In this document: piece by piece, positions 1,410-60,258 of the stretch
How positions within the stretch are numbered: the stretch's first letter is position 1
Layout: each line of letters starts with the position of its first letter
NCBI GenBank assembly: GCA_963580285.1
Contig: OY757019.1
Coordinates: forward strand, 61,462,587-61,526,586
Direction of reading: 5' to 3'
From: Lucinisca nassula
Taxonomy: Eukaryota; Mollusca; Bivalvia; Lucinida; Lucinidae
Length of the DNA: 64,000 nt
Translations under genes and position numbers: made by a program
The notes under the pieces: model-generated
What the model saw: the letters and a program-made list of their open reading frames with translations, nothing else
Databases searched by the model: none
Told to the model about the DNA's origin: nothing

Positions 1410-1445
1410 CAGAGGCTTTATTAGCCGAAACTACGTAGTATGACC
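1410..1445 (+). ncRNA. 5'-truncated hammerhead relic, array A unit 1
   Basis: Only stem II, GAAA, stem III and part of the closing stem I strand are present. The CTGATGA core is replaced by 'cacagag' because the array begins here. It should be inactive alone. Confidence 0.7.
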
Positions 1446-1783
1446 TGTTTTCTCTCTTATGAATATTTTCATTGCTCTTAAAGGAACTCATTTTTGATTT
1501 TTATTTGCCTTCACTGCAGCTGGTGTTGTGCCGTGTGGCGGCCGTAAAACGTCTCCCCGTACATCAACCATAGTGCAGTTTATATTTTACTTTTGGTCCT
1601 TTGAGATCAGCGTGAATATTCTGAGAAATCAGAAATAAACTATTAGTTTAGACTCAAATTCTAGACAGGTTTTTAATTATTTGGACCTCATTTTAATTTA
1701 TATCGGTCTTTGAATCGACTGCCTATTCGAAATTCGCAAAATTGCAGTATGCTTCCTCTGGCTTTCGTTGCCGGATCATTACA

Positions 1784-1829
1784 GGGTCACTGATGAGGCT
1801 TTATTAGCCGAAACTACGTAGTATGACCC
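1784..1829 (+). ncRNA. Type I hammerhead ribozyme (A2)
   Basis: This is a self-cleaving RNA motif of 46 nt. In order: stem I 5' strand GGGTCA (1784-1789), conserved core CTGATGA (1790-1796), stem II GGCT/AGCC with loop TTATT (1797-1809), core GAAA (1810-1813), a very short stem III CTACGTAG (1814-1821, loop ACGT), TA closing the triplet GTA (1821-1823) with cleavage after 1823, then stem I 3' strand TGACCC (1824-1829). Stem I is six Watson-Crick pairs. All conserved core bases are present. The short stem III resembles newt satellite ribozymes, which act better as dimers; this would suit a tandem transcript. Confidence 0.92.
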
Positions 1830-2166
1830 ATCTTCTTTCTTATGAATATTTTTATTGCTCTTAAAGGAACTCATTTTTTATTTTTATTTGCCTTCACTGC
1901 AGCTGGTGTTGTACCGTGTGGCGGCCGTAAAACGTCTCCCCGTACATCAACCATAGTGCAGTTTATATTTTACTTTTAGCCCTTTGAGATCAGCGTGAAT
2001 ATTCTGAGAAATCAGAAATAAAGTATGAGTTTATACTCAAATTCTAGACAGGTTTTTAATTACTTGGACCTCATTTTGATTTATATCAGTCTTTGAATTG
2101 ACTGCCTATTCGAAATTCGCAAAATTGCAGTATGCTTCCTCTGGCTTTCGTTGCCGGATCATTACA

Positions 2167-2212
2167 GGGTCACTGATGAGGCTTTATTAGCCGAAACTAC
2201 GTAGTATGACCC
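2167..2212 (+). ncRNA. Type I hammerhead ribozyme (A3)
   Basis: Identical in core and stems to the motif at 1784-1829. Core CTGATGA is at 2173-2179 and the predicted cleavage is after 2206 (GTA). Confidence 0.92.
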
Positions 2213-2549
2213 ATCTTCTTTCTTATGAATATTTTAATTGCTCTTAAAGGAACTCATTTTTGATTTTTATTTGCCGTCACTGCAGCTGGTGTTGTGCCGT
2301 GTTGCGGCCGTAAAACGTCTCCCCGTACATCAACCATAGTGCAGTTTATATTTTACTTTTGGTCCTTTGAGATCAGCGTGAATATTCTGAGAAATCAGAA
2401 ATAAATTATTAGTTTAGACTCAAATTCTAGACAGGTTTTTAATTATTTGGACCTCATTTTGATTTATATCAGTCTTTGACTCGACTGCCTATTCGAAATT
2501 CGCAAAATTGCAGTATGCTTCCTCTGGCTTTCGTTGCCGGATCATTACA

Positions 2550-2595
2550 GGGTCACTGATGAGGCTTTATTAGCCGAAACCACGTAGTATGCCCC
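2550..2595 (+). ncRNA. Degenerate type I hammerhead (A4)
   Basis: The core CTGATGA and GAAA are intact. Stem III reads CCACGTAG, which loses one pair. The closing stem I strand is TGCCCC rather than TGACCC, which adds a mismatch. It is probably weakened or inactive. Confidence 0.8.
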
Positions 2596-2932
2596 ATCTT
2601 CTTTCTTATGAATATTTTCATTGCTCTAAAAGAAACTCATTTTTTATTTTTATTTGCCTTCACTGCAGCTGGTGTTGTGCCGTGTGGCGGCCGTAAAACG
2701 TCTCCCCGTACATCAACCATAGTGCAGTTTATATTTTACTTTTGGTCCTTTGAGATCAGCGTGAATATTCTGAGAAATCAGAAATAAATTATTAGTTAAG
2801 ACTCAAATTCTAGACAGGTTTTTAATTATTTGGACCTCATTTTGATTTATATCAGTCTTTGAATCGACTGCCTATTCGAAATTCGCAAAATTGCAGTATG
2901 CTTCCTCTGGCTTTCGTTGCCGGATCATTACA

Positions 2933-2978
2933 GGGTCACTGATGAGGCTTTATTAGCCGAAACTACGTAGTATGACCC
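2933..2978 (+). ncRNA. Type I hammerhead ribozyme (A5)
   Basis: All core and paired bases match the intact motif. Core CTGATGA is at 2939-2945, with predicted cleavage after 2972. Confidence 0.92.
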
Positions 2979-3315
2979 ATCTTCTTTCTTATGAATATTT
3001 TCATTGCTCTTAAAGGAACTCATTTTTGATTTTTATTTGCCTTCACTGCAGCTGGTGTTGTGCCGTGTGGCGGCCGTAAAACGTCTCCCCGTACATCAAC
3101 CATAGTGTTGTTTATATTTTACTTTTGGTCCTTTGAGATCAGCGTGAATATTCTGAGAAATCAGAAATAAATTATTAGTTTAGACTCAAATTCTAGACAG
3201 GTTTTTAATTATTTGGACCTCATTTTGATTTATATCAGTCTTTGACTCGACTGCCTATTCGAAATTCGCAAAATTGCAGTATGCTTCCTCTGGCTTTCGT
3301 TGCCGGATCATTACA

Positions 3316-3361
3316 GGATCACTGATGAGGCTTTATTAGCCGAAACTACGTAGTATGACCC
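3316..3361 (+). ncRNA. Type I hammerhead with stem I mismatch (A6)
   Basis: The core is intact, but stem I reads GGATCA against TGACCC, giving one A-C mismatch in a six-pair stem. From the predicted cleavage point (after 3355) the element runs 65 nt to its fixed 3' end at 3420. Confidence 0.85.
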
Positions 3362-3619
3362 ATCTTCTTTCTTATGAATATTTTCATTGCTCTTAAAGGA
3401 ACTCATTTTTGATTTTTATTCACATATAGAATAAGTCAATGACATGTTAGGGGAAAATAAGACAAGGCCAATGTAGCCTATGACACAGACACGGCGTATA
3501 GCATACATATGCGAAATACTTGCTCGGCTGTGCACCACTTTACAGTACACAACTTTGCTAAGGTCTTTGGTGGCTCCGCTTGATCGGACTTCAGACTATA
3601 TCTCGTATTGTGGTTTATT

Positions 3620-5799
3620 GCACGACCCGCAGAAAAAGCAACCGACTGAAGTCGGTTTTTTCTAAGAGTGCCCTAAAATCACTGTGTCATTCTGTCATTC
3701 TGTCATTCTGTCAGTCTGTCAGTCTGTCATTCTGTCTGTCCGTCCGTAACCCGTTTGTGAAAATTGGTGATAGTGACTTAACCGCTTGGAATATTTAAAC
3801 AATTTTTGGCATACTGATAGATATCAATGAGATCTAACCAATGAACTTACGAAATATTACATTCCATTTAGTATAGCCTCGCCGAGGCGAAAAATGTGAA
3901 AATTTTCGAACATTTTTGAACCGCTTCTCCTCGGAAACCGTTGGGCCGATTGAAGTCAAATTTCATATGGAGCCTCTTTGGGATGGGGGAAACCAAAATT
4001 TGCTCATGGGGTCAAGGTCACATGACCAAAATGGCCGCCAAGCCATATATGGTTTGTCTGTCTGTCCGTCCGTAACCCGTAAGTGAAAATTGGTGATAGT
4101 GACTTAACCGCTTGGAATATTTAAACAATTTTTTGCATACTGATAGATATCAATGAGATCTAACCAATGAACTTGCGAAATATTACATTCCATTTAGTAT
4201 AGCCTCGCCGAAGCGAAAAATGTGAAAATTTTCGAACTGCTTCTCCTCGGAAACCGTTGGGCCGATTGAAGTCCAATTTCATATGGAGCCTCTATGGGAT
4301 AGGGAAACCAAAATTTGCTCATGGGGTCCAGGTCACATGACCAAAATGGCCGCCAAGCCATATATGGTAAAAACCCTTCAAAAATAGTCTTCTCCAGAAC
4401 CACTGGGCAGATTTCCACGAAACTTGATAAATAGCATCTGGGATGTAGGCCTATCATAAATTGCTAAAATGGTGACCCTTGGTTGACCTTGACCTTCTTT
4501 GGGTCCGTCCGTAACCCGTTTGTGAAAATTGGTGATAGTGACTTAACCGCTTGGAATATTTAAACAATGTTTGGCATACTGATAGATATCAATGAGATCT
4601 AATTAATGAACTTACGAAATATTACATTCCATTTAGTATAGCCTCGCCGAGGCGAAAAATGTGAAAATTTTCGAACATTTTTGAACTGCTTCTCCTCGGA
4701 AACCGTTGGGCCGATTGAAGTCAAATTTCATATGGAGCCTCTATGGGATGGGGGAAACCAAAATTTGCTCATGGGGTCAAGGTCACATGACCAAAATGGC
4801 CGCCAAGCCATATATGGTTTGTCTGTCTGTCCGTCCGTAACCCGTTTGTGAAAATTGGTGATAGTGACTGAACCGCTTGGAATATTTAAACAATTTTTGG
4901 CATACTGATAGATATCAATGAGATCTAACCAATGAACTTGCGAAATATTACATTCCATTTAGTATAGCTTCGCCGAGGCGAAAAATGTGAAAATTTTCGA
5001 ACTGCTTCTCCTCGGGAAAAGTTGGGCCGATTGAAATCAAATTTCATATGGAGCCTCTATGGGATGGGGGAAACCAAAAATTGCTCATGGGGTCCAGAAC
5101 ACATGACCAAAATGGCCGCCAAGCCATATATGGTCTGTCTATCTGTCCGTCCGTAACCCGTTTGTGAAAATTGGTGATAGTGACTTAACCGCTTGGAATA
5201 TTTAAACAATTTTTGGCATACTGATAAATATCAATGAGATCTTATCAATGAACTTGCGAAATATTACATTCCATTTAGTACAGCCTCGCCGAGGCGAAAA
5301 ATGTGAACATTTTCGAACTGCTTCTCCTCGGAAATCGTTGGGCCGATTGAAGTCAAATTTCATATGGAGCCTCTACGGGATGGGGGAAACCAAAATTTCC
5401 TCATGGGGTCCAGGTCACATGACCAAAATCGCAGCCAAGCAATATTTGGTAAAAACCCTTCAAAAATAGTCTTCTCCAGAACCACTGTGCAGATTTCAAC
5501 AAAACTTGATAAATAGCATCTGGAACGTAGGCCCATCATAAATTGCTAAAATGGTGACCCTGGGATGACCTTGACCTTCTTTGTGCCTAGGTCAAACTTT
5601 GACACATATGCTTTTGTGTTGGATTTTATCCTGCAAACGATTCAGAATACAGTACTAAAGTCTAAGATATATTTTTGCTCCTTACGATAAGGCGCATTTA
5701 TTGGGGGAACCGTTTTATGTCCAGGTCACATGACCAAAATGGCCGCCATACCCATATATGCTAACACTCATAAAGCTAAAAGCATCCGGCGGGTCGTGC
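3620..5799. mobile_element. Non-autonomous element with short inverted ends and internal tandem units
   Basis: The ends are an 11-bp inverted repeat, 'gcacgacccgc' at 3620-3630 and 'gcgggtcgtgc' at 5789-5799. Each end has a small palindrome beside it (accgactgaagtcggtt at 3640-3656; cttcagctgaag at 5801-5812). Inside are five tandem units starting near 3741, 4067, 4506, 4832 and 5148 (spacings 326, 439, 326 and 316 bp). The second unit, and the long terminal unit, carry an extra ~113-bp block that ends in the 'gaccttgaccttcttt' type motif. Short tandem 'attctgtc' repeats lie at 3687-3745. Frames that appear coding here only translate the repeat. The architecture resembles bivalve tandem-repeat-bearing mobile elements; the family assignment is inference. 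Confidence 0.65.
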
Positions 5800-6204: not shown

Positions 6205-6315
6205 AAAATATTAACATCATGTCTTACCGCCATCAAAAAGCATATGATAATATATTGCGACAAAGTCTGTCAAGGACCGGGAGTAGTCTGTTTTTGTCTT
6301 TTAAAATTCGAATGA

Positions 6316-6667
6316 GGCGGCCGTAAAACGTCTCCCCGTACATCAACCATAGTGTAATTTATATTTTACTTTTGGTCCTTTGAGATCAGCGTGAATATTC
6401 TGAGAAATCATAAATACATTTTTGGTTTAGACTCATATTCTAGACAGGTTTTTAATTTTTTGGACTGCAATTTGATTTATATCAGTCTTTGTATCGACTG
6501 CCTATTCGAAATTTGCAAAATTGCAGTATGTTTCCTCTGGCTTTCTTTGCCGGATCATTACAGGGTCACTGATGAGGCTTTATTAGCCGAAACTACGTAG
6601 TATGACCCATTTTCTTTCTTATGAATGTTTTCATTGCTCTTAAAGGATCTCATTTTTGATTTTTATT
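6316..6667 (+). repeat. Single satellite A monomer inserted in a PLE
   Basis: This is a 352-bp, 5'-truncated unit of the 383-bp repeat (it lacks about 30 bp before 'ggcggccgtaaaacg'). It ends at the same 3' base as the array at 3420 and sits between the two halves of PLE copy c. Confidence 0.85.
6563..6608 (+). ncRNA. Type I hammerhead ribozyme (A, solitary copy)
   Basis: It has GGGTCA, CTGATGA, GGCT-TTATT-AGCC, GAAA, CTACGTAG, TA and TGACCC, all intact. Predicted cleavage is after 6602. The element ends 65 nt downstream at 6667. Confidence 0.92.
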
Positions 6668-7992: not shown

Positions 7993-9462
7993 AAGTAGAA
8001 GTAAAACAAAGATCAGGAATTGATACAATTAACTTACTCCACCCATAAAAGACACCAAAGGGAAACAAATACAAACATTAAGCGACCAGACCATAATGGA
8101 AACCTAAACAAAGGAAGGCCATAAGGACAGTTACTTTCCCACAAAATGGCCATATGGCCATCCAAAACCAAAAGACACAAGTGATACACACAGTAAGTAA
8201 CAAACAACAACATAAATAAATCGCTACAGAAGAGCCGCCTTGGAACGGTCAGTGGAAGATTTCCACTGGGGGGGGGGGGGGCTTAAATCGATTTTACGTG
8301 GCCACAATCGTCGCCCTTACTTCCGTCGCGATTTAGACAAATAATTTGTTCAGTCCGCATGAAGGCCTCCTAACTCATCAGTGCAACATCTCCGTGAACA
8401 CAAAAATCAAAGAACCACAGAGGTGAGACAACGGTGAGGACTCGACAGCAAGAAACCACTGAAATGCTGGAGCAAAAGAAAACCAACAGTTAGACTCCGA
8501 TGAGCCCGACCAGAGACAGAGCATCAGGCACCAACCAACATTATCTCTCTAATTTTCAATAAGCCTTTACGTTGGAGCCGTCATAGAATCTGAGGTCTGA
8601 CCCACCGGCGTGCAATTAAAGAGGGAAGCAAAGTTGCCAACCGTGATTGGGTTAACTACCATGCATGCAGTCTGTCGTATAATATCCTTGTTGTACCCAA
8701 TCTTTTTATATCGAAGTATGATTTTACGAAATTGGGTGCTGAAGTCATTGCGGTTATATATTTTTCTGAATTTATATACTAAGTCACCATAAAATTCGAG
8801 TTCCGATAGACCTTGTTGCAGAAGAGATTTAAGTCAAATATTGAATTTTGAAATTAAATCAGAATGGCGTCTATAAAATTTTGAAAAGGCTTTGCGTAGT
8901 TTATGGTACCGATAACCCTGATTAAGGAGTTTAGCCCTCAATAATTTATTACGAGTGTTGAAGTCAGTAACATGACTACACACTCTAGCAAACCGAATTA
9001 ATTGCGAAATATAAACGCCATAGGATGGCGCACGAGGAACATCACCATCCAAAAAAGGAAAATTTACAATCTCAAAATCAAAGTCATCGCGTTTATCATA
9101 AATTTTGCACGAAACAAATCCATCTACAATAGATAGATGTAAATCCAAAAACGGGGCCTCGGTATCAGAAGAATTTGCTTTATTTAACTGAAGTTCTAGG
9201 GGGTAAATCTGACTGATCAAACCATCAAAATAGGTATTATCAATATTTAATAAATCATCTAAATATCTAGAAGTAGAGCTAAAAGCTTCAATAATTTCAG
9301 ATTGGTTATCAATGGAAAGCGACAAAATGAAGTCTCTTTCATAACAATACAAGAACAGATCAGCCACAAGAGGTGCGCAATTAGTACCCATCGGAATACC
9401 CACAATTTGTCTAAATAACTTAGTACCGAATCTAATATAAATATTGTCAAGTAGAAAGGTGA
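7993..9462 (-). mobile_element. Penelope-like element (copy b), 5' truncated
   Basis: This is the best preserved PLE copy in the window. On the minus strand it holds the RT palm (8834-9462), the C-terminal region (about 8580-8833), and the 3' tail (about 8580 down to 7993, with a run of 12 or more G at about 8269-8281). Its 5' side stops at about 9462, where a plus-strand PLE tail begins. Its 3' end abuts copy c tail-to-tail. Confidence 0.8.
8834..9462 (-). pseudogene. PLE reverse transcriptase, palm fragment
   Basis: The product would copy element RNA into DNA at the insertion site. Motifs seen in order: LLDNIYIRFGTKLFRQ, GIPMGTNCAPLVADLF (RT motif before the active site), YLDDLLNI (catalytic YxDD), APFLDLHLS, DDFDFEIVNFPFLDGDV, SYGVYISQLIRFARV and KAFSKFYRRHSDLISKFN. 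The frame is open for about 210 residues, then stops at KFNI with TGA where sister copies have GGA for Gly. Homologous sequence continues beyond the stop (SLLQQGLSE, RKIILRYK), so this is a nonsense mutation. The nominal start (residues MINHNRGT) comes from the adjoining tail of another copy and is not RT. I assign PLE from the motif set; no GIY-YIG domain is visible. Confidence 0.85.
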
Positions 9463-9718
9463 AGGCAGTTCCTCTGTTGTGGTTTATCATTTTGTAATAG
9501 TATGTACTGCTAATACCCTTTTATTTTGGATAGCCGTTTGGTCATTTCGTGAGACAGTAACTATCCTTTTAGCTTTCCGCCTGTGACGTTTTAATTACGA
9601 TAAAGTTGTTATATTTTGTTATTTCTTTCCTTTGCTGTTTGGATGGGAGGTACATATAATTGTATCGATTCCTGATCATTACATTCACTTCTATTCACCT
9701 CTAAGTTATCATGTTATG
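9463..9718 (+). mobile_element. PLE 3' tail, isolated
   Basis: A plus-strand tail fragment starts 'cagttcctctgttgtgg' (sister copies read ggcggttcttctgtcgcgg). It continues with 'ttattttggatagccgtttg' and 'tcgattcctgatcatt', and ends in the usual 'cacttctat'. It truncates copy b. Confidence 0.7.
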
Positions 9719-14229: not shown

Positions 14230-14378
14230 TGACTTTATTAAATGTTCTACAAAAAGGGTAATCCCCTGGCAGCAAGTACATCAACACAAAACTGAAAACA
14301 AAGGAGTGTTCAAGTTTTCTGGGCGAGACTAGCTAGTTTGGGCCAATTAGACCTCAGCAGTGACCCTCGATTTTTTTT
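14230..14378 (-). repeat. Solitary satellite B relic with decayed hammerhead
   Basis: On the minus strand this reads GGGTCA, CTGCTGA (core A to C), GGTC-TAATT-GGCC, CAAA (core G to C), CTAGCTAG, TC, then TCGCCC, followed by the satellite B downstream sequence (cagaaaac, later ggggattaccc). Two core changes should abolish cleavage. It lies about 250 bp 3' of a PLE RT remnant of another family on the same strand. Confidence 0.75.
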
Positions 14379-14619
14379 AATTCAGTAGTGGAATAAGTGG
14401 TTTAGGTACCAAAGCGTTAATCCAAAATCATTAATACATAGACAAATGGCAAATATCAATGTTCAGATCAACAGACATGGAGTCCATAAGAGTGTAATCA
14501 GGCGTCCGCGGATAGTAAGCAATACTTGGTAAGCAAGCTTCGCCCACCATGCCTATCGACTTGAACGAAGAAAAGAAGTAAATGCCGAGAAGGGTATGTC
14601 CGAGATTTTGGAAGTCTTC

Positions 14620-15163
14620 CTATGGCTTTCCATTGGCAAACACATCAGAAATAATTCTGGAAATGGCCACATTGTACGCATCAACAAGATCATGGTGTCT
14701 CCCATAGAACTTCTTTAGTGTTGATACCAGTTTGTTTTTTATACCCCTGGCATAACAACCTGGTAGTGAGCACCTTCCCACGTTCCATAAAGTCCTGATA
14801 CTTGGAACAGGCTCTAGCATAGCGGATTAACTGTGAATCGTAAACTCCATATGCTGATCCCAAAGGACTAGAAAAAAAATACCCACACTTTGATGAATGA
14901 CGGTGAGACATTTTACGGCCACAGTTAAGCCGGATAAGAGTTAGTAAACCTCTATGGCATACCATTTCGATATCGGCCAAAACCATAAAAAACTGTTTGA
15001 TTGCAAGTTCAAGCGGAATATTTGAATACAATGATACGACATCAAATGGTACTAGCAGAGTATTTGCAGGTACCTTCGTGTGTAAATTGTTTAGAGAAAG
15101 ACGGGAGTATCTCTGAGATAACTTTTTATACGTTTTTGTCGCCTTATTAAAATACAATACCAA
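14620..15163 (-). pseudogene. PLE reverse transcriptase, second family, internally deleted
   Basis: The N-terminal fingers part (NTLLVPFDVVSLYSNIPLEL) is joined through unrelated residues to the C-terminal part (SAYGVYDSQLIRYARACSKYQDF, then TRLLCQGY). A second frame continues with STLKKFYGRHHDLVDAYNVA and ends at 14620. The whole palm with the PMGTN and YxDD motifs is missing. The sequence is clearly homologous to the main PLE family (GVYISQLIRFARV, KAFSKFYRRHSDLI) but well diverged. It cannot make an active enzyme. Confidence 0.75.
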
Positions 15164-21540: not shown

Positions 21541-21932
21541 TCCTGAATAGTTAGATCCTTAGGGAGCAAAGAATTTACCAAATAAACGAAAATAGCAAAC
21601 TCGTTTGTTTTTTTTTTTGTTTTTTTTTTTTGTTTTTTGTTTTTTTCAGTCTGTTCATGACCAGCACTGAAATGTGCAACACCGAACACGCCCTCTTGCG
21701 CCGGCTTAAGCAGAACTCAAAATGATTCTAAATGAACTCGATGATCACAAAGGCCGCCACACGGCACAATGCCAGCCGCAGTGAAGATAAATAAGTTCTG
21801 AATAGTTAGATCTTTTGGAAGCATATTGGCCTTGGACCAGATCAATTTTCATAGTGATAAGAAAAAGCAAGAGAGATTAATTTTTCATTAGTTAGTTTTT
21901 AATACACTTTTCAACATCAGAATTCATTCAGT
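21541..21932. other. Spacer with T-rich tract
   Basis: T-rich tracts lie at about 21606-21646. A stretch near 21745-21790 ('ggccgccacacggcac', 'gccgcagtgaag') resembles the opposite strand of the satellite A 'gccgtgtggcggcc' region. I make no firm call. Confidence 0.4.
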
Positions 21933-22742: not shown

Positions 22743-22815
22743 AGTCATAGTGTAGTTTATATTTTCCTGTCCTTTGGGATCATTGATTCCATTGTGGGAT
22801 TTTGAAAATATTTTA

Positions 22816-22861
22816 GGGTCACTGACGAGGCCTACTTGGCCGAAACTAGCTATTCTTGCCC
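22816..22861 (+). ncRNA. Degenerate hammerhead (B2)
   Basis: GGGTCA, CTGACGA (one core change), GGCC-TACTT-GGCC and GAAA are followed by an altered stem III (CTAGCTAT). Probably inactive. Confidence 0.75.
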
Positions 22862-23067
22862 AGAAAACATGTACACTTCATATTTTCCAGTTCTGTGGTG
22901 TATTCCTTGCTTCCAAAGGATAACCCCTTCTAGTACATATTTTACAGCTGGAGTCTGGGAATGTGTGGCGGCCGCAAATAGTCTCCCTGCCCTACATCAT
23001 AGTGTAGTTAATATTTTCTTGTCCGTTGGGATCATTGATTCCATTGTTGAAATTTTAAAATATTTGA

Positions 23068-23113
23068 GGGTCACTGATAAAGCTTAATTGGCCGAGACTA
23101 GCTAGTCTGTTCC
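23068..23113 (+). ncRNA. Degenerate hammerhead (B3)
   Basis: The core reads CTGATAA and GAGA, so both conserved core strands are changed. Probably inactive. Confidence 0.7.
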
Positions 23114-23327
23114 AGAAAACATGTACACTTCATATTTTCCACTTATTTGGTATATTCCTTGCTTCGAAAGGATAACCCCTTCTCGAACATATTTAACGTC
23201 ACTACAGCTGGTGTCTGGGAATGTGTGGCGACCGTAAAAATTCTCCCTGCCCTACATCATATTGTAGTTTATATTTTCTTGTCCTTTGGGATCATTGATT
23301 CCATTGTTGAAGTTTGAAAATATTTGA

Positions 23328-23373
23328 GGGTCACTGATGAGGCCTAATTGGCCGAAACTAGCTACTTTGGCCC
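23328..23373 (+). ncRNA. Hammerhead motif with altered cleavage triplet (B4)
   Basis: GGGTCA, CTGATGA, GGCC-TAATT-GGCC, GAAA and TGGCCC are intact. Stem III and the triplet read CTAGCTAC-TT instead of CTAGCTAG-TC. This gives triplet CTT and loses the first stem III pair. Activity is doubtful. Confidence 0.8.
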
Positions 23374-23587
23374 AGAAAACATGTACACTTCATATTTTCC
23401 AGTTCTGTGGTGTCTTCCTTGCTTCCAAAGGATAACTCCTTCTAGAACATATTTAACGTCACTACAGCTGGTGTCTGGGAATGTTTGGCGGCCTTAAAAA
23501 GTCTCCCTGCCCTATATCATAGTGTAGTATATATTTTATTGTTCTTTGGGATCATTGATTCCATTTTGGAATTTTGAAAATATTTGA

Positions 23588-23633
23588 GGGTCACTGATGA
23601 GGCCTAATTGGCCGAAACTAGCTACTTTGGCCC
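23588..23633 (+). ncRNA. Hammerhead motif with altered cleavage triplet (B5)
   Basis: Same as B4, including the CTT triplet, which suggests that these two units arose by local duplication. Confidence 0.8.
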
Positions 23634-23847
23634 AGAAAACATGTACACCTCATATTTTCCAGTTCTGTGGTATCTTCCTTGCTTCCAAAGGATAACTCAT
23701 TCTAGAACATATTTAACGTCACTATAGCTGGTGTCTGGGAATGTGTGGCGGCCTTAAAAAGTCTCCTTGCCCTATATCATAGTGTAGTTTATATTTTATT
23801 GTCCTTTGGGATCATTGATTCCATTGTGGAATTTTGAAAATATTTGA

Positions 23848-24276
23848 GGGTCACTGATGAGTAAAGTAGAAGTAAAACAAAGATCAGGAATTGATACAAT
23901 TAACTTACTCCACCCACAAAAGACACCAAAGGGAAAGAAATACAAACATTAAGCGACCAGACCATAATGGAAACCTTAACAAAGGAAGGCCATAAGGACA
24001 GTTACTTTCCCACAAAATGGCCATATGGCCATCCAAAACCAAAAGACACAAGTGATACACACAGTAAGTAACAAACAACAACATAAATAAATCGCCACAG
24101 AAGAGCCGCCTTGGAACGGTCAGTGGAAGATTTCCACTGGGGGGCTTAAATCGATTTTACGTGGCCACAATCCTCGCCCTTACTTCCGTCGCGATTTAGA
24201 CAAATAATTTGTTCAGTCCGCATGAAGGCCTCCTAACTGATGAGGCCTAATTGGTCGAAATTAGCTAGTCTGGCCC
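23848..24276 (+). ncRNA. Hammerhead B6, disrupted by insertion
   Basis: GGGTCA and CTGATGA (23848-23860) are separated from the second half by the PLE tail. The second half has a duplicate CTGATGA (24237-24243), GGCC-TAATT-GGTC, GAAA, TTAGCTAG, TC and TGGCCC, ending at 24276. The right half keeps a GTC triplet but lacks its 5' stem I strand. Confidence 0.85.
23862..24235 (-). mobile_element. PLE 3' tail inserted in a ribozyme core, 9-bp target duplication
   Basis: This 374-bp minus-strand PLE tail is flanked by 'actgatgag' at 23853-23861 and 24236-24244. The duplicated target is the hammerhead core itself. In its own orientation it runs from 'ttaggaggccttcatgcgg' to 'tttacttctacttta'. Excision in silico would restore satellite B unit 6. 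Confidence 0.9.
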
Positions 24277-24752
24277 AGAAAACCTGTACACTTCATATTT
24301 TCCAGTTATGTGGTGTATACCTTGCTTCCAAAGGATAACCCGTCTAGTACAACGTCGCTGTTTGACGGCTCCACCTTGTTAACCCCCTTCAGCAAGAGCG
24401 TTGTGGTACTACGGCCTATGAACTACCGTCTTTGTCTATAGAAAGGGCTGTAGTTGATAACCATAGCTGTCATTCAGCCGACAAGTTTGCAGTATGTGTT
24501 ACAAAAGGCCAAGAGGTTAGTTTGTTTACTCAAACTTCATAAAAGACCCTAGAAAGCTTGGTTTATTGCACTTTCAAGCTCTATAAAAAGCTCTATTGAG
24601 GTTTTAAATGAACTGAAATCCAGACGTTTTCATTCTTCAAGTCTGCCTACTTATGATTTTTCCATGGTTTACCATACACGTCCTCATAATCTTATAAAAA
24701 AAAAACAACGACTTAACTGAATGGACAGTTCAACGAGTAGATTCCCTCGATC

Positions 24753-27315: not shown

Positions 27316-27758
27316 TGACATTCTTTCTTATGAATGTTTTCATTGCTCTTAAAGGAACTCATTTTTGATTTTTATTTGCCTTCACTGCAGCTGCTGTTGT
27401 GCCGTGTGGCGGCCGTAAAACGTCTCCCCGTACATCAACCATAGTGCAGTTTATATTTTACTTTTGGTCCTTTGAGATCAGCGTGAATATTCTGAGAAAT
27501 CAGAAATAAATTACTGGTTTAAACTCATATTCTAGACAGGTTTTTTATTATTTGGACCCCATTTTGATTTATATCAGTCTTTGTATCGACTGCCTATTCG
27601 AAAATCGCAAAATTGCAGTATGTTTCCTCTGGTTTTCTTTGCCGGATCATTACAGGGTCACTGATGAGGCTTTATTAGACGAAACTACGTAGTATGACCC
27701 ATCTTCTTTCTTATGAATGTTTTCATTGCTCTTAAAGGAGCTCATTTTTGATTTTTAT
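27316..27758 (+). repeat. Satellite A insertion, one monomer plus 64 nt
   Basis: Its left end 'tgacattctttcttatg' corresponds to the first bases after the predicted ribozyme cleavage point. It runs through a full monomer and ends at the fixed 3' terminus 'ctcatttttgatttttatt'. Confidence 0.85.
27655..27700 (+). ncRNA. Type I hammerhead with stem II mismatch (A, solitary)
   Basis: GGGTCA, CTGATGA, GAAA, CTACGTAG, TA and TGACCC are intact. Stem II reads GGCT/AGAC, with one mismatch. It may keep partial activity. Predicted cleavage is after 27694. Confidence 0.88.
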
Positions 27759-28855
27759 TATGTAACAAAACAACAACAACAACAAAAATAAAAACAAACA
27801 AAAACGAAACAAGTAAATATACAAGAACATATTGTAGCAAAACATGCAATGTGATAACAGTATGATTATGTGCTTACAGTTAGACTATGAGATGTTGGCG
27901 TTTATGATAAACGCGATGAATTTGATTTTGAGATTGTAAACTTTCCTTTCTTGGTTGGTGATGTTCCTCTTGCGGCATCCTATGGCGTTTATATTTCGCA
28001 ATTGATTCGATTTGCCAGATTATCTAGTCTTGTAACTGACTTCAACACTCGTAATAAATTGTTTACTGCTGCACTTCTTAATCAGGGTTATAGGTATCAT
28101 AACCTACGCATTTTATAGACGTCATTCCGATTTAATTTCAAAATTCAATGTTGGACATAATCTCTTCTGCAGCAAGGCTTTCGGAACCCGAATTTTATGA
28201 TGACTTTGTATATAAATTCAGAAAAAAAAACTATATACTTGCAATAACCTAGCACCCGATTTCGTTAAATCATTCTTCGATATTAAACTTGGGTACAACA
28301 TAAATGTTATACGACAGACTGCATGCATAGTAGTTTACCCAATCAAGTTTGTCATCCCTCTCTTCCTATGACGGTTCCAGCGTAAAGGCTTACTGAGAAT
28401 GAGAGAAAATTTAATTTTATGTATGGTAGGTGTGTCTCATGCTCTGTCTCTGGTTGGACCCATCGGAGTCTAATTGTTGGTTTACATTTGCTCCAGCATT
28501 TCAGTGGTTTCTTGCCGTCGAATTCTCAATATTGTTTCATCTCTGTGGTTGTTTGATTTTTGTGTTCTCGGAGATGTTGCACTTGTGAGTAAGAAGGCCT
28601 TCCTGTGGACTGAACAAATTATTTGTCTAAATCGCGATGGGAGTAAGCGCGAGGACTGCGATTGCGTAAAACAGATTTAAGCCCCCAACCCTCCGCACAC
28701 ACACACACACACCACCACCCCCACCACCACCACCACACACACACACACACATTGTAATGTCTAGTTATTTAATGTTTGTGTTTTTTTCCTCTTGTGTCTC
28801 TGATGGGAGGTGTGGGTTCATTGTATCGATTCATGATCATTGCCTTCACTTCTTT

Positions 28856-33960: not shown

Positions 33961-35017
33961 GAATGCCAAACATTTCTTTATTGTTTGGATCATCCAGAGA
34001 AGAAGATTTTTGAAGGCTTTGTACCTAAAATGGGCATAGTAGCAATGTGTGCCAGTAACCAAACTGATAGTAATGAATTTTAATTGCTTTGCTCCTAAAA
34101 GCTCCCTTATGAAATTTTGTTACATACGGATCAGTGGTTTCTGAGAAAATTAAGTTTCAATTTTCATATTCTGAATAACCTTTGGCAAAAGTCTAAGAAA
34201 TGACCTGCATCCTGAATACTCATACAGTTACAATTACTCATTTAGCTTACTGCATCCTCCCATTTTCAGATCACAGACTGCGATAACTTATAAAAAATAC
34301 TTAGTTTTTTTTTGCTTTTCCAATACAGAGGTCTATGTGAGCAAATTTGACCGTGACGTAAAATAGGTCGAAATCGGGCCAAAAGTTCTGGAGAAAGGAT
34401 TTTTAAAAGGGTTTTTACCATATATGGGCATGGTTGCCATATTGGTCGTGACCAAATGATAATATTCAATCTCTGAAAGCTTCTTATGAAAATTTGATTA
34501 CATACGGCCAAGTGGCTTCTGACAAAATCAATTAAAAATTTCCATATCTAAATGACCTTGAGTCAAGGTCGAAGCAATGACCTTGACCTTCAATACTCAT
34601 ATACTTTTATTTACTCATTTTGGTAATTGCATGTACTAATTTTCTGATCACAGGCTGCAATAACTTTCGAAAAATACTTAGTTGTGGCTTTTTCCAAAAT
34701 TAAAACCTAACTGAATAAATTTGACCTTGGCTTAAAATTGGTCTTGGTCATCTGAGGGTCATCTTTTGAATAAACTACGATGGACTCTAGTCTCCAATGC
34801 TACAATGCGACATACCTAGTTTCATGACAATCGGCCCTCTGGTTCCGGAGAAGAAGATTTTTAAAGGGTTTTTACCTTATATGGGCATGGCGGCTAACTT
34901 GAACATGTGACTAAACTCAAGTTAATCAATTTTCATTTCCTTGATCCTAAAAGCTTTCGTATGCAATTTGGTAAAAAAAATGGCCCAGTGTTTTCTGTGG
35001 AAAACAAGTTTCAGTTT
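33961..35017. repeat. Dispersed 'GACC' repeat, two to three degenerate units
   Basis: The phrase 'gagaa.aagatttttaaagg' followed by 'tttttacc.tatatgggcatgg' occurs at about 34000, 34392 and 34855. 'gaccttgacctt' and 'tactcatttt' blocks also repeat. It is an old tandem arrangement of about 390-460 bp. Confidence 0.6.
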
Positions 35018-35700
35018 TAATGCAAGAAATTCCTTTTCACTTCTGAAGAGAATAAAAAATTATACCTTTTGGTCATATCAGAAAGTGTGTGACGCTCTCA
35101 AGTTTCTATTTGACACTATTTACATAAGATTTGGTACTAAGTTATTTAGACAAGTTGTGGGTATTCCGATAGGTACTAATTGCGCACCACTTGTGGCTGA
35201 TCTGTTTTTGATTTGTCATGAGAGAGACTTCATGATGTCCCTTTCTGCCGAAAACCAGTCTGAAAGCATTGAAGCTTTTAGCTCCACTTCTAGATATTTG
35301 GATGATTTATTAAATATTATACCTATTTCGATGGTTTGATCAGTCAAATTTACCCCCCCCCCCCCACCCCCACTCAGAACGTCAGATAAATAAAGCAAAT
35401 TCTTCTGATACCGATGCCCCGTTTTTGGATTTATATCTATCTATTGTAGCTGGGTTTGTTTCTTGCAAATTTTATGATAAGCGCGATGATTTTGATTTTG
35501 AGATTGTACATTTTCCTTTTTTGGATGGTGATGTTCGCCGTGCGCAATCCTATTGCGTTATTATTTTGCAATTAATTCGATTTGCCAGAGTGTGTAGTCA
35601 TGTAAGTGACTTCAACGCTCGTAATAAATTGTTAACGGCTAAACTTCTTAATCAGGGTTATCGGTACCATAAACTATGCAAAGCCTTTTCAAAATTTTAA
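35018..35700 (+). pseudogene. PLE reverse transcriptase of copy m, two frames
   Basis: The first frame (to 35339) reads KVCDALKFLFDTIYIRF, TKLFRQVVGIPIGTNCAPL, ADLFLICHERDF and SSTSRYLDDLLNI, so the catalytic YLDD is present and PMGT is PIGT. A short deletion after LLNI and a C run shift the frame. The second frame (35425-35700) reads DLYLSIVAGFVSCKF, DDFDFEIVHFPFLDGDV and RNKLLTAKLLNQGYRYHKL. The full domain is thus present in two pieces. Confidence 0.82.
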
Positions 35701-36116
35701 AAAGGTCATTCTGATTTAATTTCAAAATTCAATTTAAGTCCTCACTGTTGTTTCATCTCTGTGGCTGTTTTATTTTTTGTGTTCACGGAGATGTTGCACT
35801 GATGAGTTAGGAGGCCTTAATGCGGACTGAACAAATTATTTGTCTAAATCGCGATGAAAGTAAGGGCGAGGATTGTGGCCACGTAAAATCGAATTCGTTT
35901 CGGCTGACCGTTCCAAGGCGGTTCTTCTGTCGCGGTTTGTTCATGTTGTGGTTTGTCTTTGGGTGTTTGTGTCGCTTGTGTTATTGCCTATTGGACATTT
36001 TTTGGAAAGTGACTGTCCTTTTGGCTTTCCTCTGTTGATATTTCCATTAGGATCTGTTGTTCCGTGCTTGTGTTTCTTTCCCTTTGATGTCTCTGATGGG
36101 AGCTGTGGGTTAATTG
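35018..36116 (+). mobile_element. Penelope-like element (copy m), 5' truncated
   Basis: It contains the RT palm, then a deletion that joins the end of the RT ('ttcaaaattcaat') directly to the post-coding region ('ttaagtcctcactgttg'), then the 3' tail, ending at about 36116 where an AAGTAAG element starts. A C-rich run at about 35353-35372 disrupts the RT at the same place as the C run in copy d. Confidence 0.8.
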
Positions 36117-58697: not shown

Positions 58698-60258
58698 CTA
58701 CTCAAAGTTTGATAGGGATCAATTTTTATATACCAAATTTTGCACTAAAAATTTAAAATTTCTTGACAGAATTTGTACACGGTATAATGATAAATATCTT
58801 AAGCAGAAAGTCATGTGCAGTTCAGTACTCATAAAAGTGCACACTTCTCACACTTCGCAAATGAATCCATGCACCCCCAAAACCTTGCGTAGCACTGCTT
58901 TCCAACAGACCAATCAAACTTGTCAGTGTTCCTTTACCAAGCGTAAAAAGGACTTCATTTTATTGGTGAAACACTAAAATGCCTAGGGGACAATTAAGAA
59001 ACTGTCGCAGCCACGAAGAAATGAATCGTGACGTCGGAATGTTGGAATCTGACGTCTCTCAACGTCGTGTTGCTGGGATTCAGAATGTGTCTCAGAGCGT
59101 GGTTTCCCGAATGTGGAGTCGGCATCTTACCCACGGGAATCCTTCACACAGACACGGCGGGGTCGAGAAAGGGCTACAACTCAACGTCAGAGCCGTTTCT
59201 TGGTGATTCAGTCTCGACGTCAACGGTTCCTGAATGCTACGCGTTTGCATAACGAACTTAGGAACGGAACTGGAGTACGAATTGCTACACAAACTGTCAG
59301 AAACGGGCTCCACGAGTTCGGACTTAATGTCATGAGGCCTGCTGTACGTGTTCCATTGACGAGACAGCACGTGCTAGACCGGTTGGACTTTGCCAGAATT
59401 CACGTCAATTGGACGGTTCGTGACTTGACGCCAGTACTGTTTACTGAGGAGACTTCACTTATAAACGTCAATTAGTGTGGCGAATGTCTAAAGAGCGATT
59501 TGATGACTTGAATGTTGCAGAGCATGATCGCCATGGAAAGGGGTCAGTCATGGTTTGGGCTGGGATAAGCGAGAAAGGTAAAACTGACTTGTACGTCGTT
59601 GAAAAAGGAACGTTAATGGCAATGAGGTACTGTAATGATATTCTAGATGAGTTTGTGAGACCAAATGCAGATGCTATCGGCCTGGACTTTATTCTGATGG
59701 ACGATAATGCCCGTCACAACCGTGCCAACGTCACTGATTCCTATCTGGAACGTGAGACAATCGTACATGTGGACTGGCCTGCTCGGTCAACGGACGTAAA
59801 TCCGATTGAGCATGCGCAGGATATGCTACAGCGTGATGTTTCAGCCCGAGCTGTGCATCCGAGTACTTTACAGGAGCTCAAAGATGCACTGGTTGCTGAA
59901 TGAAAGCCGATTCCCAAAAAACCGGATACAGGCTCGGATTACGAGCATGCGCATGCGATGTCGTACTGTAATTGATGTCCTTGGACGTCATACACGATAT
60001 CAGTCACGTTTGACTAAACAAATTTGGAAATTTGTGAAAAATCAGTTGTCCAAATCCCTTCGTGTTACGGCAAATTTTGGGGGTGCCAAGACGGTTGCTG
60101 TTGTAACGCTTGAATGCAGTACCAGTTGACAAAATTAATCACTAGATTTTGTGAAGGATACGTTTCCTATCAATATGTATCAAATTTGGATTCAGCTGAT
60201 TAATTCATCCAAAAATTATTTTGAATTAAAAAAGTGATCCCTATCAAACTTTGAGTAG
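58698..60258 (+). mobile_element. Tc1/mariner-type DNA transposon, 1561 bp
   Basis: TA flanks lie at 58696-58697 and 60259-60260. The terminal inverted repeats 'ctactcaaagtttgataggg' extend for 24 perfect bp. It contains one transposase gene on the plus strand with few breaks. This element is younger than the one at 37.5 kb. Confidence 0.93.
58979..60000 (+). pseudogene. Tc1-type transposase (DD34E), three frames
   Basis: It starts at ATG 58979 (MPRGQLRNCRSHEEMNR). The N-terminal helix-turn-helix part includes VAGIQNVSQSVVSRMWSRH. A frameshift near 59140 moves into a frame reading RRGRERATTQRQSRFLV and the linker to 59475. A stop and frame change near 59475 lead into the main catalytic frame (59475-59903), with VWRMSKERF, GKGSVMVWAGIS, LMDDNARHNRA (second Asp) and STDVNPIEHAQD (Glu). 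There are exactly 34 residues between Asp and Glu. The first catalytic site reads FTEET where Tc1 enzymes have TDES, so the Asp is replaced by Glu. The last part (IQARITSMRMRCRTVIDVLGRH) is in another frame. Not active as it stands. Confidence 0.9.

Follow-up and report, generated by a model that had tools for sequence, protein, structure and literature searches.

The window analysed, a stretch of 64,000 nucleotides from the bivalve Lucinisca nassula (contig OY757019.1), contains near its left end a 383-bp unit repeated in tandem at positions 1412–3420 of the forward strand (5.2 copies, 96%; Tandem Repeats Finder), which bears out the period reported in the first-pass annotation of this DNA. 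That annotation had placed the array at 1411–3420; the end is exact, whereas the start is off by one base and lies at G1412. Units are numbered here from the T of TGACCC (position 1), the base immediately 3′ of the predicted cut (TA^TGACCC). On this scale the insertion begins at unit position 355, in the core of the hammerhead belonging to its truncated first copy, and ends at unit position 65.

Hammerhead motifs were located with a descriptor consisting of CTGANGA, stem II, GAA, A–stem III–U–H and a stem I with 4 bp or more. It matched the window four times, at 1784–1829, 2167–2212, 2933–2978 and 6563–6608, against a mean of 0.07 and a maximum of 1 in 100 dinucleotide shuffles of the window. 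All four matches read GGGTCA-CTGATGA-GGCTTTATTAGCC-GAAA-CTACGTAG-TA-TGACCC and contain every core base and three stems, in agreement with the earlier description of a complete type I hammerhead, and the three that lie within the array, all on the forward strand, confirm the number of intact array copies given there. The first of them has its predicted cut after A1823. In two further array copies, also on the forward strand, a stem I pair is broken: stems III and I are altered at 2550–2595 (CCACGTAG, TGCCCC), and stem I has a mismatch at 3316–3361 (GGATCA). The array tail (3356–3420, forward strand) comprises unit positions 1–65 and closes with the fixed 3′ end ...GATTTTTATT. The hammerhead numbering followed here is the one that we assume to apply.

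Stem III consists of three pairs (A–U, C–G and U–A) and a palindromic ACGU loop. The catalytic fold of a single hammerhead is predicted to be marginally weaker than the optimal fold (−11.7 versus −12.5 kcal/mol), and the predicted co-fold of two 46-nt hammerheads takes precisely the double-hammerhead form (−39.3 versus 2 × −12.5 kcal/mol). Dimeric action, which the first-pass annotation had suggested, is possible on these predictions. The short stem III with its palindromic tetraloop is like that of the newt and axolotl hammerhead repeats as described (PMC7229834), a comparison made by description and not by unit sequence; the three stem III pairs found here are nearer to the invertebrate form, and most invertebrate retrozyme hammerheads, whose stem III is similar, are reported in the same source to cleave efficiently as single motifs. 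A fold is a prediction rather than an activity; self-cleavage, ligation and 383-nt circles are putative.

A covariance search with Rfam models had been proposed earlier, with the lack of a hit named as grounds for refutation. In the window this search gave 0 matches at the gathering score, which on those terms formally refutes the observation. Under relaxed settings (E up to 1), the type III model Hammerhead_3 matched each of the five array copies whose hammerhead region is complete at 21–24 bits, compared to a gathering score of 48.5, and most of these alignments pair the upstream flank instead of the type I stems. Three further loci containing 383-family copies yielded one weak hammerhead match only. 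Because the models also score these other loci poorly, the missing match in the window is given little weight; the Rfam models are poor for this hammerhead form.

Two additional 383-family insertions, both on the forward strand, lie in the window; they were overlooked by the earlier reader, as was a 260-bp-unit array at 22745–23861. The first is a permuted monomer of 355 bp at 6313–6667 (unit positions 94–383 followed by 1–65) with the intact hammerhead at 6563–6608. The second measures 439 bp (27321–27759; positions 10–383 followed by 1–65), and its hammerhead has one stem II change. Across the genome (2.93 Gb, 696 contigs), exact matches to the intact 40-nt hammerhead number 16,301 (8059 + 8242; reversed control, 0), and those to the 31-nt tail, unit positions 35–65, number 8375 + 8161. 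Copies of the 383 family are spread over many contigs (40 of 1487 candidates scored). Insertion lengths range from 61 to 2009 bp with a median of 439 bp (n = 71), and 41 of the 71 exceed one unit; the longest among 73 is the 2009-bp insertion, arrays cut by a locus edge being left out. Overlapping-locus duplicates, edge-cut pieces (including L085) and matches below 88% identity or 60 bp were excluded from the insertion counts, and long arrays may be under-counted because edge-cut pieces were left out. Hammerhead divergence is 1.0% versus 3.6% at unit positions 172–343, in a sample that was mostly picked for an exact hammerhead and is hence biased, so that we claim no conservation of the hammerhead from it.

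These properties support the assignment of the 383-bp element to an already known group, the non-LTR retrozymes of animals, as a non-autonomous member. Such elements are described as tandem repeats of 150–450 bp with type I hammerheads, low GC content and no LTR (PMC7229834), and the units in Mytilus galloprovincialis measure ~350–390 bp (Cervera and de la Pena 2020, PMC7229834). The present element likewise combines a type I hammerhead with short tandem units in thousands of copies; its GC content of 37.1% (window, 38.4%) is below the retrozyme criterion of 45–50%, no direct repeat was found between the left and right sides of the array within 1.2 kb, and two units in tandem contain no open stretch longer than 50 amino acids. 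With plant LTR retrozymes it would share the hammerhead and a circle-based spread, but those elements have type III hammerheads, LTRs and units of ~700 bp (PMC7229834), in contrast to the type I motif and lack of flanking repeats seen here. The earlier label, a satellite hammerhead and candidate retrozyme, is therefore supported in its second part, whereas "satellite" fits less well, as the sampled copies are short and dispersed and have one common end. What is of interest beyond the known animal non-LTR retrozymes is the anatomy of the insertions, together with a related family, C, described below.

The 3′ end of the insertions is nearly constant. It falls at unit positions 62–72 in 56 of 62 insertions sampled regardless of their end (collected by exact hammerhead, by overall similarity to the window unit, from the window itself or from the same loci), and in 66 of 73 once 11 insertions are added that were found by a tail pattern, which selects for reaching position 65. 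All three window insertions end at position 65, with starts at 355, 94 and 10. The seven exceptions among the 73 end at positions 29, 55 (twice), 75, 78, 85 and 356. T follows position 65 in 45 of 71 insertions, the same base as in the template, and the start of copying may therefore vary over positions 65–69 or use short matches. The two insertions that end at position 55, L005 and L047, lie on different contigs and have an identical 14-nt 3′ flank.

The opposite end is scattered. Among 71 insertion starts, 16 lie in the hammerhead (8.9 expected, p 0.018), a modest enrichment; 19 in the hairpin described below (12.8 expected, p 0.063), which is not significant; 26 at positions 141–343 (37.6 expected); and 10 at positions 9–71 (11.7 expected). 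This distribution is only a hint, since the rows selected by hammerhead constrain the possible starts. None of the 71 starts lies at position 1, after the flanks of three BLAST splits had been read: the apparent position-1 starts of L016, L033 and L056 are such splits, and reading by eye gives ~377, 376 and 373. The 18 insertions in C1 12.0–14.52 Mb form a set that is complete for exact tails; 16 of them cross the cut site and two stop short of it, L082 at position 8 and L084 at position 7. Thirteen of the 18 were read, and the other five were judged from an exact hammerhead match that stands at the distance expected. A linear monomer as template would yield 65-bp insertions only. Target duplications, which in animal non-LTR retrozymes exceed 4 bp where they occur, are weak: at least 5 nt are duplicated in 9 of 71 insertions, against a null of 3.7%, and by a looser test 5 of 56 lie above the null's 95% point. 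The weak duplications, the seven deviating ends and the modest enrichment of stops count against the model favoured below.

The model that we favour, with a probability of roughly three in four, is that a non-autonomous retrozyme is reverse-transcribed from a primed, fixed start within the unit, the enzyme following a single small circle of RNA. Each hammerhead, acting alone or in a dimer, would cut the transcript, and the resulting 383-nt pieces would join into circles. A borrowed reverse transcriptase would dock on a hairpin at unit positions ~72–140, and copying would begin just 5′ of this hairpin at TATT(T), positions 65–69, primed by target DNA; a target-primed start at this site is proposed because the insertion end is fixed. 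The enzyme would then pass the healed cut site and continue for anything from part of a turn to more than five turns before falling off, a variable number of turns being invoked because the other insertion end varies. A tandem array would record successive passes of the enzyme over a single circle. The pattern bears on how animal retrozymes return into DNA, a step of their proposed life cycle. RNA circles of such elements are known in other animals, and a circular RNA template has been proposed for the tandem cDNA of metazoan non-LTR retrozymes (PMC7229834). Whereas the copying step is proposed there, the fixed start and the adjoining shared hairpin are visible here, the likeness to Mytilus being one of description. 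Together with the agreement of units within arrays, these two features make the proposed copying round a circle countable in a genome.

That agreement is pronounced. Pairs of units from the same array, compared at 23 informative sites, disagree in 64 of 1794 cases, against a mean of 392 and a minimum of 331 in 1000 permutations, and three arrays (L023, L052 and L033) are near-uniform, with 0, 0 and 1 within-array differences. Of 249 non-majority variants at positions with at least three copies, 56 are present in all units of their array, 176 in one and 17 in an intermediate number; nine of these 17 occur in all units but one, and four are at position 56. Mixed control pseudo-arrays, assembled from units of different arrays, gave 14 variants in all units, 5687 in one and 591 between (6292 in total). 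The variants present in all units are the telling class. For the window array the corresponding numbers are 6, 27 and 2. We read the within-array agreement as the probable mark of a single small circle copied several times over.

A template of a different kind, a linear multimer that is transcribed from an array of the same retrozyme already in the genome and stays uncut, would also allow insertions to cross the cut site. If that array were young and uniform, its uncut linear transcript could hardly be told from a circle by the traces left; the predicted catalytic fold of the single hammerhead, marginally weaker than the optimal one, is in keeping with such a transcript. We nevertheless regard a linear template as unlikely. 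Units agree in young arrays though genomic units differ, as the permutations above indicate, and this agreement counts against a linear multimer because an old multimer would pass on the differences between its units. In addition, the retrozyme RNA of mussels is reported to be mostly circular (PMC7229834).

The tandem arrangement itself could have arisen in the manner of a satellite, if slippage or unequal crossing-over enlarged a short insertion into an array, with the hammerhead a passenger of that step. The intermediate variants bear on this explanation. They make up 17 of 193 within-array variants (8.8%), compared to 591 of 6278 (9.4%) in the mixed controls, whereas simulated unit duplication placed 25% of variants in the intermediate class when spread over the whole age of the array, 8.9% when restricted to its first half and 1.3% when restricted to its first tenth; the simulation is crude in that partial units were counted whole and position 56 was given five cases, compared to four in the data. 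The scarcity of intermediate variants was considered as proof that arrays originate in one step and was rejected, since simulated early growth gives an equal share. Because duplication in the first half matches the observed value, the intermediate class cannot separate the models. Some growth soon after an insertion is accordingly possible, but array growth as an explanation of its own is very improbable on other grounds: short insertions, some of less than one unit, are dispersed with one end fixed and the other variable, arrays of several units are nearly uniform, and the genome holds 16,301 exact hammerheads.

In the favoured model of copying round a circle, the fixed start adjoins a structured module. 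One copy of it in the window occupies 3038–3115 on the forward strand (unit ~66–143), just 3′ of the putative reverse transcription start, and is predicted to form a hairpin 6 nt after TATTT. The arrangement of TATTT, 6 nt and a hairpin ACTRCA...TGYAG is common to the copies compared from the 383, 260 and C families, where the pattern used to collect modules permitted 3–7 nt before the anchor. In most copies the hairpin is closed by ACTGCA/TGCAG, and the copy at 3038–3115 has GTGTTG on its 3′ side. Among 54 distinct modules (48 of the 383, four of the 260 and two of the C family), one closing pair, G–C in 383 and C, differs at both bases in 260 (A–U); the next closing pair is C–G, but U–G in C, and neither C copy retains the outermost A–U pair. 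Covariation of a single pair across families is suggestive only. The hairpin is likely to be a docking site for the reverse transcriptase, by analogy with the Anolis Penelope-like element PAc, which has an internal start of reverse transcription near a stem-loop and a constant tail end; PAc differs in being a coding element, and its hammerhead is dispensable for insertion in vitro (PMC11167929). No account of a fixed start was found in the titles and abstract openings listed from open-licence papers. The pattern indicates the exact RNA to offer to candidate reverse transcriptases.

The window also contains several decayed reverse-transcriptase-like copies with the Y-x-D-D motif typical of reverse transcriptases, among them those at 8834–9520 (reverse strand) and 34926–35736 (forward strand). 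We presume these pieces to be Penelope-like. They gave no match to Pfam or NCBIfam; none of their homologues is named among the best 120 of 8000 scored, and one of five scanned homologues has a sub-cutoff match to RVT_1. The presence of such fragments nearby, one of which sits within an old 260-type unit, could mean that the 383-bp array is the terminal repeat of a Penelope-like element and not independent, which we consider extremely improbable. The copy in the 260-type unit is a nested insertion: a 260-like copy at 14242–14920 (reverse strand) is split by a 5′-truncated insertion designated PLE-B. A coding partner carrying a 260-type hammerhead had been considered here (15172–14200, reverse strand) and was rejected, as the other copies examined have no hammerhead: the core pattern is missing from L066–L072, and L073–L076 have no retrozyme match. 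The dimer of the 383-bp unit, moreover, has no reverse-transcriptase reading frame, its longest open stretch being that given above. L066 and L072 have short retrozyme matches only, on the opposite strand, and L066, L068 and L072 have the common end ...CCTAAACTACTT, as read by eye. No sequence link was found between the retrozyme and any helper element, and according to a 2020 review no motif in the known retrozymes pointed to the helper (PMC7761336).

The related 260-bp hammerhead family is represented by the array at 22745–23861 (forward strand; 4.3 copies, Tandem Repeats Finder), in which the descriptor found no intact hammerhead. The 260 array is interrupted by a fragment of another repeat (23863–24238, reverse strand; "pltr" query, 94%), and its remainder at 24236–24351 (forward strand) ends at unit position 82 of that family. 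Among five 260-like copies with a visible end, four stop at the matching place (82, 83, 86 and 87), the exception being L007, which ends at 62. The interrupting fragment has CTGATGAG on both sides, a sequence that equals the hammerhead core and is perhaps a target duplication; a related repeat at window position 448 is likewise preceded by CTGATGAG.

Family C shares the tail, the start and the hairpin. Copies were seen at 2511–2935 of L058, 1620–1887 of L047, 709–1104 of L011 and, in the window, at 21640–21850 (reverse strand), where the tail, start and hairpin start are the same, the hammerhead core is missing and the module is partly missing. The unit measures 276 bp (L058) and matches the 383-bp unit at ~82% over positions ~26–171, and on the scale of the 260-like copies two tails of family C stop at 88. 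Neither the relaxed descriptor nor a search for the bare core found a hammerhead core in the four pieces, the L058 locus as a whole giving 3 matches in these searches. In place of the hammerhead lies a domain of ~103 nt, conserved in six pieces from four sources, three of which span it whole, with a predicted fold of an 8-bp closing stem and inner hairpins. Rfam found no ribozyme in three family C loci, and it missed the 383 hammerheads there too, so this result has little weight. It is conceivable, though we think it improbable, that the three families constitute one modular kind of RNA-circle retroelement with a shared tail, start and docking hairpin and an exchangeable self-cutting module, in which the ~103-nt domain would belong to another or new ribozyme class. 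Another self-cutting RNA could be sought in family C. Scoring of 40 of 2046 candidate places genome-wide revealed three tandems of this family, spaced 278, 278 and 270 bp. Other repeats in the window include a tandem array with a 316-bp period (three copies, 4503–5450) and Tc1-like transposase pieces at 59053–59903 (Pfam HTH_Tnp_Tc3_2 and DDE_3).
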